Positions 40,758 through 45,872 of a stretch of 51,241 bases of DNA are shown piece by piece (position 1 is the first letter of the stretch; each line of letters begins with the position of its first letter). The notes beneath the pieces are model-generated. The model was not told where the DNA came from. It made no database searches and saw only the letters and a program-made list of their open reading frames with translations. The position numbers were made by a program, and so were the translations under genes. Origin of the DNA: an uncultured Pseudacidovorax sp. (GTDB lineage Bacteria > Pseudomonadota > Gammaproteobacteria > Burkholderiales > Burkholderiaceae_C); NCBI RefSeq assembly GCF_913773995.1, contig NZ_CAJYES010000185.1, positions 1 to 51,241 of the forward strand, read 5' to 3'.

Positions 40758-41689
40758 GACTTGACCTCTTCGAAGGTGAATGCGGTGGCGAGCTTGACCA
40801 GGGCGGCTTCGAGCAGCAGGCCCACGATGCCGATCACGAAGATGGCGATGATGATGTTCTTGACGTTGAGGTTGTTCCACTCGTCCCACACCCAGAAGCC
40901 GATGCCCACGCCGCCGGTCAGCATCTCGGCGGCCACGATCACCAGCCAGGCGGTGCCCACGGCCAGGCGCACGCCGGTGAGCATGTAGGGCAGCACGGCC
41001 GGGAACAGGATGCGCGTCAGGATCTTCCATTCCGACAGGTCCAGCACGCGGGCCACGTTCATGTAGTCCTGTGGCACGCGCTGCACGCCCACGGCGGTGT
41101 TGATGACCATCGGCCAGATCGAGCAGATGAAGATGGTCCAGATGGCGGCGGGGTTCGCGCCCTTGAACACCAGCAGGCCGATGGGCAGCCAGGCCAGCGG
41201 TGACACCGGCCGCAGCAGGCTGATCAGCGGGTTGAACATGCGCGCCAGGAAGACCGAGCGGCCGACCGCGAAGCCCGCCGGAATGCCCACCAGTGCCGCC
41301 AGGCCAAAGCCGACCGCCACGCGCTGCAGCGAGGCCAGCACGTTCCAGCCCACGCCCTGGTCATTCGGGCCGTTGCTGTAGAAGGGGTCGGAGAAGACCG
41401 TCACGGCCTGGGCCCAGGTCTCGCGCGGGCCCGGAAAGCTGCCGCCGCTGCGCGCGGCCACGAGCTCCCACACCAGCAGCAGCAGGCCGAAGCCCAGAAG
41501 CGGCGGGACGATGCGCAGCCACAGGCCGCTGAAGTCGCGCGGCGCACGCGGTGCCTTGACCGGCTGTGCAGTGGCCGCTGGCGCTTCGGGCGTGGGCGCC
41601 ACGGCGAGCGGCTTGGCCTGCGCATGCACGGCCGGGATCGGGGCCGCGATGTCGGCCTCGCGCGGAAGATGGAAAACGGCGGCAACCAT
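40754..41689 (-). CDS. nrtB: Nitrate ABC transporter permease
   Basis: A 311-residue inner-membrane permease. A 50-residue cytoplasmic, proline/alanine-rich N-terminus is followed by about six helices (first PPLLGFGLLLLVWELVA) and the EAA-type loop MNVARVLDLSEWKILTRILFPAVLPYMLTGVRLAVGTAWLVIVAAEML. Start ATG 41689 has AGGAG upstream. It overlaps nrtD by 4 nt and follows nrtA by 32 nt. Confidence 0.93.
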   Translation of the reverse strand: MVAAVFHLPREADIAAPIPAVHAQAKPLAVAPTPEAPAATAQPVKAPRAPRDFSGLWLRIVPPLLGFGLLLLVWELVAARSGGSFPGPRETWAQAVTVFSDPFYSNGPNDQGVGWNVLASLQRVAVGFGLAALVGIPAGFAVGRSVFLARMFNPLISLLRPVSPLAWLPIGLLVFKGANPAAIWTIFICSIWPMVINTAVGVQRVPQDYMNVARVLDLSEWKILTRILFPAVLPYMLTGVRLAVGTAWLVIVAAEMLTGGVGIGFWVWDEWNNLNVKNIIIAIFVIGIVGLLLEAALVKLATAFTFEEVKS

Positions 41690-41721
41690 GGTGATGGGCT
41701 CCTGCTGAGTGGCGGCCGGCC

Positions 41722-42969
41722 TCAGGCGCGGACCTTGAACGAATCGGCGTACTTGGCCGGCTCCTTGCCGTCCCACACCACGCCGTCGATGAGCTTGCTG
41801 CTGCGCATCGGGCTGGCGGGCACCGGCGTCTTGGTGGCGGCGGCGGCCTGCTTGTAGATGTCGATGCGGTTGATCTCGGTGGCCACCTTCAGGTAGTCCG
41901 GATGCTCCTTGAGCAGGCCCCAGCGCTTGTGCTGGGTGAGGAACCACATGCCGTCCGACAGGTAGGGAAAGTTCACCGCGCCGTCGTTGTAGAACTTCAT
42001 GTAGTTCGGGTCGTCCCAGGTCTTGCCCAGGCCGTTCTGGTAGCGGCCCAGGATGCGCTGGTTGATGGCGTCCACGCTGGTGTTGACGTAGCTCTTCTCG
42101 GCGATGGTCTCGGCCATCTTGTTCTTGTTCGATAGACCGCCGTCGATCCACTTGCCGGCCTCCAGGATGGCGGCCGTCACGGCGCGGGCGGTGTTCGGGT
42201 ACTTCTTGACGAAGTCGGCCGAGGTGCCCAGCACCTTCTCGGGATGGTCCTTCCAGATGTCCTGCGTGGTCACGGCGGTGATGCCGATGCCGTCCATGAT
42301 GGCGCGGTGGCCCCAGGGCTCGCCCACGCAGAAGCCGTCCATGTTGCCCACGCGCATGTTGGCCACCATCTGCGGCGGCGGCACCACGATGGCCTTGGCG
42401 TCCTTCATCGGGTTGATGCCGTTGGCGGCCAGCCAGTAATAGAGCCACATGGCATGGGTGCCGGTGGGGAAGGTCTGGGCGAAGGTGTATTCGCGCTTCT
42501 CGGCGGCCATCAGCTTGGCCAGCGAGGCGCCGTCCACCGCACCCTTGTCGGCCAGCTTCTTCGACAGCGTGATGGCCTGGCCGTTGTTGTTGAGGGTCAT
42601 GAGCACGGCCATGTCCTTCTTGGGGCCGCCGATGCCGAGGTGCACGCCGTAGACCAGGCCGTAGAGCACATGGGCGAAGTCCAGCTCGCCGTTGACCAGC
42701 TTGTCGCGCACGCCGGCCCAGCTGGCTTCCTTGCTGGGAACGATCTTCACGCCGTACTTCTTGTCGATGCCCAGCACCGAGGCCATGACGACGCTGGCGC
42801 AGTCGGTCAGCGGGATGAAGCCGATCTTCACCTCCTCTTTCTCGGGCTTGTCCGAGCCCTGCGCCCAGACGGCGGCGCGCAGGGCGGGGTCGATGGTCAG
42901 GGCGCTGGCGGCGGCGGCCTGCAGCACGCGGCGGCGGCTCAGCGGGGCGGGGCGGTGGGCGTCGGTCAT
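41722..42969 (-). CDS. nrtA: Nitrate ABC transporter substrate-binding protein (Tat-exported)
   Basis: A 415-residue CmpA/NrtA-type binding protein. The N-terminus carries a twin-arginine signal ([16 protein letters not shown], residues about 9-24). The mature part has [62 protein letters not shown] and [19 protein letters not shown], all typical of nitrate/nitrite binding. Start ATG 42969 follows GGAG. It is the first gene after a leader with a regulated terminator. Confidence 0.94.
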
Positions 42970-43004
42970 GGGCAGACTCCGGGGCAAGAAGGGCGGCGAA
43001 GGGG

Positions 43005-43084
43005 AAAAACAAAAAGGCGTCCTCGCCGCGCCGGGCCCATGGCATGCGGTGCATGCCATGGAGCCAGCGGGAGAGGACGCCTTT
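43005..43084 (-). terminator. Attenuator terminator in the nrtA leader
   Basis: On the minus strand AAAGGCGTCCTC (43084-43073) pairs perfectly with GAGGACGCCTTT (43024-43013), followed by TTGTTTTT. The loop holds a second perfect 11-bp hairpin (arms 43061-43051 and 43047-43037, loop ACC). It lies inside the leader, 36 nt before the nrtA start, so it must be overridden for the operon to be expressed. Its 5' arm includes the loop and 3' arm of antiterminator hairpin P2. Confidence 0.88.
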
Positions 43085-43121
43085 GTCCTGTGTCCGGCCT
43101 GCCGCGCCCGCCTTTGGGCAC
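43074..43121 (-). promoter_or_regulatory. Two-hairpin ANTAR antiterminator target
   Basis: P1: GTGCCC-AAAGGC-GGGCGC (43121-43104), six pairs including one G-U. P2: AGGAC-AAAGGC-GTCCT (43089-43074), five pairs. Both have the same hexaloop with A at position 1 and G at position 4, the known ANTAR recognition pattern; the linker is 14 nt. P2 and the terminator stem are mutually exclusive. NasR binding here on nitrate/nitrite would stabilise P1/P2 and let transcription continue. Confidence 0.82.
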
Positions 43122-43162
43122 CACCTGCCGGACGACCGTTTCCGGTCTGTGGTCAGGACTAC

Positions 43163-43177
43163 GCAAGCGGTGTGCCA
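43163..43177 (-). promoter_or_regulatory. Sigma-54 (-24/-12) promoter of the nrt/nas operon
   Basis: Minus strand TGGCAC-ACCGC-TTGC (43177-43163), an exact match to the TGGCAC-N5-TTGC consensus. The start would be near 43151, giving about 180 nt of leader holding the ANTAR hairpins and terminator. Implies NtrC control. Confidence 0.8.
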
Positions 43178-43388
43178 GGATGGGCTGATGGGCGGTCCAA
43201 GGTGGCTTCGTCAGAGGGAGAACGGCCGGACAGGGCTTGCCGAGCCCACTGTTGCATGCGTCCCTGGGCGACCGTCATGCGCCACGGACGTGCACCGCGC
43301 ATTGCTGCTGTGCACCAAAAGCAGCTGCGGTGCGTTCGTCAGCGCCGGGTCTGTGTCAACCTGGGGCGCGGCTCGGCAGTGGCCGAAG
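43178..43388. other. Upstream region of the nrt promoter with NtrC-like half-sites
   Basis: No gene here. TGCACC occurs at 43291-43296 and 43311-43316 and GGTGCG at 43329-43334, about 115-155 bp upstream of the sigma-54 promoter, a usual distance for NtrC enhancers. They resemble NtrC half-sites (GCACC/GGTGC), but none forms a full site with canonical 5-nt spacing, so this is weak. Confidence 0.35.
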
Positions 43389-44648
43389 TTAGCGCGGCGC
43401 GCTGGCGCCCAGCGGCAGGAAGTCGGCCATGGCCAGCACCGACTCGGCCACGTCCACCAGCCGGCGGTTCTGGTTCATGGCGGTCTGGCGCAGCATCTTG
43501 TGGGCCTCTTCCTCGCTGAGCTTGCGGTGGGCCATCAGCAGGCCCTTGGCGCGTTCCACCACCTTGCGCTCGTTGAGCGAGGCGCGCACGGTCTGCAGCT
43601 CGTCGTTCATGGCCTGCAGGCGACGCGACTGCTCCTGCACCATCTGCAGCACCGAGCGCTCCAGGTTGCGGCCGTAGCCGGCCGCGGGGGCTTCGGCGGT
43701 CTCGCCGGCGCCGTCGGCGAAGAAGTCGCCGGGCTTCACCGCCTCGGCCTGCAGCGCCTCGTAGCGTTGCAGCTCGGCGCGGGCCTGCTCTATCTTGCGG
43801 CCGCACAGCGCGCGCAGCTCGCGCGCCAGGCCATCCTCGATGGCCTGCATGGCGTCGATGCGGCGGGTGCAGCCCTCGAACCACAGCGGGCTCAGGTTGG
43901 CGTCCAGCACCGTGCCGGCCGGCGATGTGCAGCCGATGCGGCGCAGGCGCTCCAGTTCGGCGAGCTGCGCCGGCGCCTGGCTGGCCTGCCACTGGGCGCG
44001 CAGCGTCTCGTCGCTGAACTCGCAGAACAGGCCGAAGCAGCGCTCCTGCGATTCGATCAGGTGCAGCCACTGCTGACGCTGGGCATCGTCGTTGCCGCCG
44101 CGCAGGAAGGCGGCGGCGCCGAAGGCACGTTCCTGGCCGGCGAATTCCTTGCCCTGCATGAAATTGAACATGGCGACCAGCCAGCGCGAGATGTCCGGGT
44201 CGGTGGCGCCATCGGCCGCCTCGAACACCACCGCCAGCAGGCCGGCGATCAGCTTCACGTAGGCGGCGGTGGAGACGTCCGGCCCGATCGACAGCGCCTC
44301 GATGCGGGCGCGCAGGGCAGGCAGGGCGTCCAGCCCCTGCAGCACATAGGCCACCCGGGGAAAGAGGCGCGAGCCGCCCGCCAGCCGCCGCGGGTCGTCC
44401 ACCAGCGGGTCGAGGGCGGCGCGGACCTGTTGCTCCCGGGCCAGGCAGTCGGCCACCTGCGCGGCACGCTCGGCGGCGAAGCGCTGGCCGCCCGAGCCCA
44501 GGAAGACATTGGTGATGCCGCGCTCGCGCTGCAGGGCATGCACCAGCCGGCCCAGCGTGCCCACCAGCTCGCTGGTGCGGGCGAGCTGGTCGAGCTCGTC
44601 GATCTCGCAACGGCGGGCGGCGATCAGAAAGCCAAGGCTGGTCGTCAT
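43389..44648 (-). CDS. nasR: Nitrate-responsive antiterminator NasR (NIT-ANTAR)
   Basis: A 419-residue cytoplasmic regulator. The NIT sensor domain fills residues about 30-290, with the signature [52 protein letters not shown], and the late [10 protein letters not shown]. The C-terminal ANTAR RNA-binding domain (about 355-412) has [49 protein letters not shown]. It senses nitrate/nitrite and binds leader RNA to block termination; the target is seen just downstream. Start ATG 44648; an upstream in-frame ATG at 44693 is possible. Confidence 0.93.
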
Positions 44649-44696
44649 GGGGCAGGCGGCAATGAAGCAGGAAGACGCGAGGGGCGAGAGCATGCC

Positions 44697-44711
44697 GCAA
44701 ATTCCATGCCC
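44697..44711 (-). promoter_or_regulatory. Possible sigma-54 promoter of nasR
   Basis: Minus strand GGGCAT-GGAAT-TTGC has the GG-N10-GC spacing and a perfect TTGC, with a weaker -24 element. A start near 44685 would suit the nasR ATG at 44648. Weaker than the nrt promoter. Confidence 0.4.
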
Positions 44712-44816
44712 CTCGACGTGCAACCGGGCCGCCCGGCCGGCTTTGCGCACCGCATCGGCGCAGGGGCATGGCGCGCGCGGGCGGCTCCGCGCCGGGGCGC
44801 CGCCTACACTGCCGCG

Positions 44817-45872
44817 ATGCGCATCCTGGGCATCGAATCCTCCTGCGACGAAACGGGCGTGGCCCTCGTCGAGACCCTGGCCGACGGCGGCGTGCCGCGA
44901 CTGGCGGCCCACGCCCTGCACAGCCAGATCGCCATGCACCAGGCCTACGGCGGCGTGGTGCCCGAGCTGGCCAGCCGCGACCACATCCGCCGCGTGCTGC
45001 CCCTGACCGAGACGGTGCTGGCCGAAGCCGGCTGCACGCGCGCCGACATTGACGTCGTCGCCTTCACCCGCGGCCCGGGTCTGGCGGGGGCGCTGCTGGT
45101 GGGCGCGGGCGTGGCCTGCGCGCTGGGCGCGGCGCTGGGTCGGCCGGTGCTGGGCGTGCATCACCTCGAGGGGCATCTGCTCTCGCCCTTCCTCAGCGTC
45201 GATCCGCCGCAGTTCCCCTTCGTGGCGCTGCTGGTGTCGGGTGGCCACACGCAGCTGATGCGGGTGGAAGGCGTCGGGCGCTACGAGCTGCTGGGCGAGA
45301 CCATCGATGACGCCGCGGGCGAGGCCTTCGACAAGAGCGCCAAGCTGATGGGCCTGCCCTATCCCGGGGGGCCCTGGCTGTCGAAGCTGGCCGAGGGCGG
45401 CGATGCGCAAGCCTTCAAGCTGCCGCGACCGCTGCTCCACAGCGGCGACCTAGATTTTTCCTTCGCCGGCCTCAAGACGGCGGTGCTCACGCAGACCCAG
45501 AAGCTGGGCGCCGAGCTGGAAGCGCGCAAGGCCGACCTGGCCGCCTCGACCCAGGCGGCCATCGTCGAGGTGCTGGTGCGGAAGTCGCTCGCGGCGCTGG
45601 CGCAGACGGGCCTTCAGCGCCTGGTGGTGGCCGGTGGGGTGGGCGCCAACAAGTTGCTGCGCGAGCAGCTCAATGCCGCCTGCGCCAGGCGCAAGGTGCG
45701 CGTGCACTACCCGGAACTGGCGCTGTGCACCGACAACGGCGCCATGATCGCCCTGGCGGCGGCCATGCGCATCCAGTCCGGCCTGTCGCAGCCGGAGGCG
45801 CGCTACGCCTTCGACGTCAAGCCGCGCTGGCCGCTGGATGCGCTGGCCGAGGCGGCGCCGGCGTCGGCCTGA
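44817..45872 (+). CDS. tsaD: tRNA N6-adenosine threonylcarbamoyltransferase TsaD
   Basis: A 351-residue TsaD that transfers the threonylcarbamoyl group to A37 of ANN-decoding tRNAs, with TsaB/TsaE partners elsewhere. Motifs: [16 protein letters not shown], the metal-binding H116/H120 in [52 protein letters not shown] and CTDNGAMIA. Standard length. The start ATG 44817 has no Shine-Dalgarno; a -10-like TACACT lies 6 nt upstream. The 3' end overlaps the convergent fruR gene by 56 nt. Confidence 0.96.

Follow-up and report, generated by a model that had tools for sequence, protein, structure and literature searches.

A probable ANTAR-type attenuator behind a sigma54-type promoter box ahead of a nitrate-assimilation operon in Pseudacidovorax, and its likely kinship with narK RNA

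We analyzed a 51,241-bp stretch of DNA from an uncultured Pseudacidovorax sp. (the window) and found on its minus strand, between a gene for a NasR-like regulator and an nrtA-like gene, a leader that we read, with a probability of roughly 93%, as an ANTAR-controlled attenuator of a nitrate-assimilation operon that is started by sigma54 and NtrC and switched by nitrate. The mechanism itself is already known (the nasF leader of Klebsiella oxytoca and NasR are reportedly the subject of papers by Chai and Stewart from 1998 and 1999), and the window holds a further attenuator of the NasR/nasF type with a sigma54 input like that of NalA, which gives Pseudacidovorax, Variovorax and related bacteria a clean, well-conserved example of the switch. 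The newer part, and most likely the one of greatest interest to specialists, is the probable reassignment of narK RNA to the same module.

Results

The leader is preceded by a -24/-12 promoter box, TGGCACACCGCTTGC (43177-43163, minus strand, a sequence match to TGGCAC-N5-TTGC), which we take to be of the sigma54 type from the sigma54 consensus, and by spacing from this box transcription would be expected to start near 43151. The box falls within the range covered by the preliminary description (42970-43177), which does not mention it. On the same strand, 116 nt upstream of the -24 box, stands an imperfect palindrome, GCAC-N7-GCGC with one mismatch (43293-43279), presumably NtrC-like to judge by the NtrC consensus. 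Behind the expected start, the minus strand can fold into P0 (43147-43134), a small hairpin with which the leader begins, and into two hairpins with the hexaloop AAAGGC: P1 (43121-43104), with six pairs of which one is G-U, recognized by sequence, fold and covariation, and P2 (43089-43074), with five pairs and a closing C-G. Folding and the alignment of the window's clade (A1, below) place P0 and also extend P1 to 43133-43092, through pairing of 43133-43127 with 43098-43092. The terminator hairpin (43084-43013, minus strand) combines a perfect 12-bp base, 43084-43073 with 43024-43013, with a paired apical part that includes an 11-bp hairpin, perfect in the window (43061-43037, by folding), and it is followed by the T tract TTGTTTTT (43012-43005). 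Its 5' arm consists of the loop and 3' arm of P2. The two hairpins with their identical loops, the 12-bp terminator and the T tract all lie exactly where the preliminary description had put them.

ANTAR antiterminators are described as two stem-loops with hexanucleotide loops, A1 and G4 in the loop and a closing C:G pair (PMC7496416, PMC3369931), which is also the binding motif published for NasR (PMC7496416), and the window leader has two hexaloop stem-loops, A1, G4 and the C:G closing pair. P1 and P2 are separated by 14 nt (43103-43090), the linker length previously given; that figure holds for P1 as then drawn, and most of the linker is absorbed into extended P1, after which just 2 nt stay unpaired ahead of P2. 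Induction through EutV was impaired by a linker of 14 nt (PMC3369931).

The gene upstream of the leader is, as claimed earlier, a NIT-ANTAR gene on the same strand (43389-44648), whose product, a NasR-like regulator, has 419 aa from an ATG at 44648 that we chose as the start. It contains the Pfam domains NIT (PF08376, E 1.4e-56) and, at its C-terminus, ANTAR (PF03861, E 8.2e-21), and its match to the NasR structure 4akk spans residues 12-411 of 423 (E 9.1e-51, 176.6 bits), which makes it a distant homologue that may, by this homology, sense nitrate and bind RNA. Its closest relatives among the best 80 of 138 are from Pseudacidovorax (98% identity to P. intermedius DSM 21352), and it is the sole ANTAR match in the genome (5.37 Mb, 261 contigs, 99.99% complete). 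The first gene behind the leader (41722-42969, minus strand; NMT1_2, PF13379, E 5.8e-103), which we take to be nrtA, encodes an NrtA-like nitrate-binding protein from an ATG at 42969 chosen by eye behind GGAG; next comes a gene for a transporter permease, and a molybdopterin oxidoreductase is encoded further downstream. A gene on the plus strand at about 44.8-45.9 kb, presumably TsaD/Gcp-like, diverges from the NIT-ANTAR gene.

Folding singles out the terminator, at -59.3 kcal/mol (z -9.45, none of 200 shuffles equally stable), and the whole of 42970-43177 (z -6.57, again 0/200). The stability of P1 alone was equalled by 8 of 200 shuffles and that of P2 alone by 2 of 200; the energy of the 61-nt stretch spanning both is unremarkable (z -1.38, 23/200), and P1 and P2 therefore rest on comparison rather than on energy. 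The full leader folds at -103.5 kcal/mol when free versus -87.1 kcal/mol with P1 and P2 enforced, a cost of about 16 kcal/mol in energy models that leave out protein and polymerase kinetics, so the terminator would win unless something holds P2. When the leader was folded stepwise from the expected start (14 lengths), P2 was the predicted state at lengths between 78 and 128 nt; at 130 nt it had shifted, and at 132 nt and beyond the terminator had taken its place. P2 and the terminator thus exclude each other by sequence and by predicted folding, the outcome that the preliminary description had anticipated from competing folds. In the fold of 43177-42970, GUCCUG at 43158-43153 pairs with the 5' arm of P2; we rejected this pairing because these bases lie upstream of the expected transcription start and should be outside the RNA.

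A scan of both strands of the window for the arrangement as such, defined as two A1/G4 hexaloops on stems of at least 5 bp, a perfect stem, 10 bp or longer, beginning at the second loop, and a T tract, returned the leader as its only match, and returned nothing in 60 shuffled windows (300-nt blocks, which keep base composition and not dinucleotides). A simple terminator scan of 41500-45500, set for loops of 3-8 nt, does not list the leader terminator and gave two terminator-like sites elsewhere, both on the plus strand; a scan of the same region for sigma70 promoters gave none.

We then compared 110 NIT-ANTAR loci, comprising the best 80 of 138 and the best 30 from genomes of the same family, with some genomes in both subsets and the window itself included (L082). 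In 107 of the 110, the window among them, a P2 sequence follows the NIT-ANTAR match within 700 nt; at two of the others (L020, L030) the contig ends first, and at the third (L081) P2 lies at about 1.35 kb. The sigma54-type box (pattern TGGCA-N7-TGC, about 0.01 expected per 100 nt) stands at most 130 nt upstream of P2 in 105 of the 107 (it is absent from L025 and L098), and 78 of these 105 loci have a perfect GCAC-N7/8-GTGC no more than 250 nt ahead of the box, against 1.75 expected from base shuffles and none in control regions; the window itself has the one-mismatch version only. These data bear on the possibility that the leader answers to another ANTAR protein, or to a small ligand as a riboswitch, instead of to the neighboring NIT-ANTAR protein. 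Elsewhere this leader type accompanies REC-ANTAR proteins (seven of eight scanned, below), which would fit such a controller, but the window's genome contains no second ANTAR match, P2 keeps close company with the NIT-ANTAR match in nearly all loci, and the most conserved parts of the leader are those that bind ANTAR proteins. We accordingly regard a different controller as quite improbable and the neighboring NIT-ANTAR protein as the preferred one.

The same comparison qualifies two features on which the preliminary description had laid weight. The tandem identical hexaloops are present in the window, and such identity is ordinary: the loops of P1 and P2 are the same in 28 of the 98 leaders that the hairpin finder detected, including L003-L006 from the same genus and not the closest relative, L002, and we rejected it as a functional feature. 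Likewise, the 11-bp hairpin nested at 43061-43037 is real and is a normal apical part of the terminator, not an unusual one, because the apical segment (16-48 nt long, with the window at the upper end at 48 nt) forms five or more pairs in every one of the 75 distinct terminators that we folded; the 11-bp hairpin has one mismatch in L002, L003 and L006 and is replaced by different sequences in other relatives.

The distance from loop to loop falls into two classes. Of 69 leaders in the window's clade, 68 have a distance of 27-31 nt, the exception being L078, at 56 nt, where the hairpin finder took P0 for P1; in the Polaromonas-type clade the distance is 39-44 nt in 28 of 29 leaders and 34 nt in the other. 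Among the 33 Polaromonas-type leaders, the linker between P1 and P2 could be delimited in 26 and contains a small hairpin in 25 (L063, L091 and L075, for example), a modest signal against shuffles (mean z -1.81, median p 0.07). That long gaps tend to fold into a spacer hairpin suggests that the spatial distance between the loops is conserved. Of the 53 leaders of the window's clade, 49 have P0, and in 29 its loop is a hexaloop; the alignment of the Polaromonas-type clade shows no P0. Since A1 and G4 occur together in P0 in just 5 of the 53, we rejected it as a third ANTAR site as a general rule.

For covariation analysis, removal of near-duplicates reduced the 107 leaders to 85, which were aligned around the P2 sequence without use of structure. 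Alignment A1 comprises 53 sequences of the window's clade (52 relatives and the window) and A2 comprises 33 of the Polaromonas-type clade, both from related species, in which counts of sequences are not counts of events; A3 consists of 17 rows that we picked, namely the window, five relatives and 11 of the 16 narK matches described below, the last selected by a model that pairs P1, and its P1 evidence is not independent. Cells in the named structures are paired at 91.5% in A1, 93.0% in A2, 93.3% in A3 for P1 and P2, and 95.3% in A3 for P1 and the terminator, and in all four counts the covariation score was reached in none of 500 shuffles. Structures slid along the alignment scored far lower on paired cells and on covariation. 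Other measures separate less sharply: 45 of 500 shuffles equalled A1 in further pair types, 61 of 500 equalled A3 (P1 and P2) in the number of pairs changed on both sides, and A1 in one slid version had 15 such pairs versus 14 in the actual structure. The P0 helix is paired in 91.1% of A1 cells, with three of its five pairs changed on both sides, and the outer GG/CC pairs of extended P1 are kept in 95.2%.

Compensatory change is strong for P1 and the terminator. The inner four pairs of P2 are invariant in A1, and hence uninformative there, and P2 is supported through its outer pairs in A3 alone. In that alignment, the outer P2 base, its partner and the opposing terminator base are G/C/G in the window and 12 of the 17 rows; they change in concert to C/G/C in L120, T/A/T in L132, G/T/A in L121 and A/T/G in L135 (in the last two, one of the two pairings is G-U), and L126 (C/T/C) has lost the outer pair of P2 together with the corresponding pair of the terminator. 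Loop position 3, unpaired in P2 and paired in the terminator, takes part in A-U in 11 rows and C-G in four and is unpaired in two. The concerted changes, few of them independent, favor selection on both folds. The covariation test proposed with the preliminary description did not speak against it, with P1 and the terminator covarying in relatives and P2 doing so by its outer pairs. That the hairpin is a constitutive terminator of the NIT-ANTAR gene with coincidental hexaloops has next to no chance of being right: it does follow that gene on the gene's own strand and folds as a strong intrinsic terminator, but a sigma54-type box separates gene and hairpins in nearly every locus, P1 covaries along with the terminator, P2 and terminator bases change together in some relatives, and a plain terminator has no need of A1/G4 hexaloops.

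Across the family, the pattern GGACAANGGCGTCC-N25-55-GGNCGCC, which joins P2 to the terminator, occurs in 97 of 299 genomes and its reversal in 7. An ANTAR gene is present in 96 of the 97, versus 240 of all 299 (Fisher p 1.9e-10); the one exception (G027:C175:6277-6337), in a genome of 340 contigs, may reflect either a missing contig or an orphan leader. Conversely, 144 of the 240 ANTAR-bearing genomes have no such pattern, so ANTAR genes often go with other sequences. Taking a match with E up to 1e-20 to the whole protein as being of NIT-ANTAR type, we found the pattern in 57 of the 76 genomes with such a match and also in 40 genomes without one. For 92 of 109 pattern places (the other 17 had no ANTAR position among the matches listed, and some positions are rounded), 83 lie at most 15 kb downstream of the ANTAR gene on the same strand, 68 of them at most 1 kb, and 9 do not.

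At the gathering threshold, no Rfam family matches the window. Below it, narK RNA (RF03032) matches at 23.6 bits (E 0.011, gathering 43.2), from within the promoter box to the last base of P2, and P11 (RF00625) matches 43189-43016 at 22 bits (E 0.0046, gathering 70). Genome-wide, there are 15 weak narK matches, among which the window site ranks first (E 0.06), at a cut-off at which 13 of 14 control genomes also match. We searched 369 genomes of the class at E of at most 0.001, for which the match in the window's own genome is too weak to be included, and found narK matches in 15, two of them above gathering. An ANTAR gene is present in 13 of the 15, versus 114 of 369 overall (Fisher p 8e-6), and all 14 matches in these 13 genomes lie on its contig and strand: 13 follow it at a distance of 54 to 9,194 nt, and one precedes it by about 10 kb. 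By eye, 13 of 16 narK matches show a P1 with an A1/G4 hexaloop, a P2 and a T tract; L129 has P1 without a standard P2, and this arrangement is absent from L130 and L134, which come from the two genomes lacking an ANTAR match. Four genes behind narK leaders gave, by Pfam, an MFS transporter, NMT1_2, Alginate_exp and one without a match, and at L125 the downstream gene starts, by eye, like a molybdopterin nitrate reductase.

Viewed against L120 and L121 (1501-1571), the narK model begins with GGCaCAgcucUUGCU, a -24/-12 box without its first T, and it resembles a sigma54 promoter over its first 15 positions; promoter box, P1 and P2 succeed one another as they do in the window. Unlike the window leader, it pairs P1 alone (loop AACGGC), and CGACAAAGACGUCG, which would make a perfect hexaloop hairpin, is given no pairs. 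Of the ANTAR proteins encoded with narK matches, eight from the 13 genomes were scanned, and seven are REC-ANTAR and one NIT-ANTAR; near-identical P2 sequences accompany NIT-ANTAR in one lineage and REC-ANTAR in others, which suggests that the sensor was replaced and the RNA code kept. The P11 model, too, contains a sigma54-type box, the same P2 and a terminator, and its promoter box and the P2 stretch GGACAAAGGCGUCC align with those of the window; P11 probably is the NalA leader. We think it likely that narK RNA is not a class of its own but a sigma54 promoter joined to the ANTAR hairpins P1 and P2, that narK and P11 are the module seen in the window, and that this module is indifferent to the sensor and conserves the spatial distance between its loops.

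Rfam lists P11, which is alignable to the leader, as an sRNA gene, and the terminated product would retain a folded P1, both of which would suit a terminated leader that works mainly as a short trans-acting RNA capturing the regulator, in the manner of eut leader RNAs, rather than as an attenuator of nrtA. We give this reading very little credence, as P2 is buried in the terminated form, full NasR affinity needs both hairpins (PMC7496416) and the element directly precedes nrtA; attenuation of nrtA remains our reading.

Discussion

Antitermination under ANTAR control, as read from the sequence in the preliminary description, is supported by the anatomy of the leader, the covariation, the concerted changes of P2 and terminator, its recurrence across the NIT-ANTAR loci and the single ANTAR match of the genome. 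In such an attenuator, sigma54 polymerase, probably activated by NtrC under nitrogen limitation, would start near 43151, and the nascent leader would first fold into P0, extended P1 and P2. About 50 nt separate the completion of P2 from the emergence of the terminator's 3' arm, an interval that would serve as binding time and for which the apical arm may provide; within it, a nitrate-loaded NIT-ANTAR dimer would bind the A1/G4 hexaloops and hold P2. With P2 held, no terminator would form, and nrtA and the following genes would be transcribed; without nitrate, P2 would be displaced, the long hairpin would form and transcription would stop at the T tract. The net logic would be an AND of nitrogen hunger, sensed at the promoter, and nitrate, sensed at the attenuator. 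For NasR itself, PMC7496416 reports nitrate-dependent binding of the motif and nitrate-dependent readthrough (52% vs 5%).

As described in PMC7496416 and PMC3369931, the nasF/NasR system shares with the window a one-component NIT-ANTAR regulator, two hexaloop hairpins, a P2 that overlaps an intrinsic terminator, and a nitrate-assimilation operon. The first genes differ, that of the window being an nrtA-type transporter gene. The window leader shows, in addition, P0 and an extended P1. Pseudomonas NalA resembles the window in its sigma54 promoter and ANTAR antitermination, and NtrC control is reported for it, with NtrC motifs reported missing in P. protegens; its regulator is NasT, released by NasS, whereas that of the window is a one-piece NIT-ANTAR protein (PMC12830290 and PMC3973561). 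The eutP leader of Enterococcus faecalis, bound by EutV, likewise has a dual hexaloop with A1 and G4 and a P2 excluded by a terminator, but it differs in its two-component regulator, its ethanolamine genes and its linkers of 5-12 nt (PMC3369931 and PMC8934654). Around the two spacing classes, the natural variation in P1 length, linker length and linker pairing offers testable material on why the spacing of ANTAR hairpins has to be fixed.

If the reassignment is true, narK RNA, which here comes with merely a name and a 'Cis-reg' label, gains a mechanism. Both the narK and the P11 models appear to extend into untranscribed promoter DNA and would then need to be redrawn. In the literature searched, covering titles and the beginnings of abstracts, we found no link between narK RNA and ANTAR proteins; the founding description, said to be that of Weinberg in 2017, lay outside this coverage.

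Six genomes (G020, G022, G068, G148, G150 and G232) carry two leader codes about 3-11 kb apart, the one nearer the NIT-ANTAR gene with the P2 loop AACGGC (AATGGC in G232) and the one further on with AAAGGC, an arrangement that suggests a second attenuated operon.
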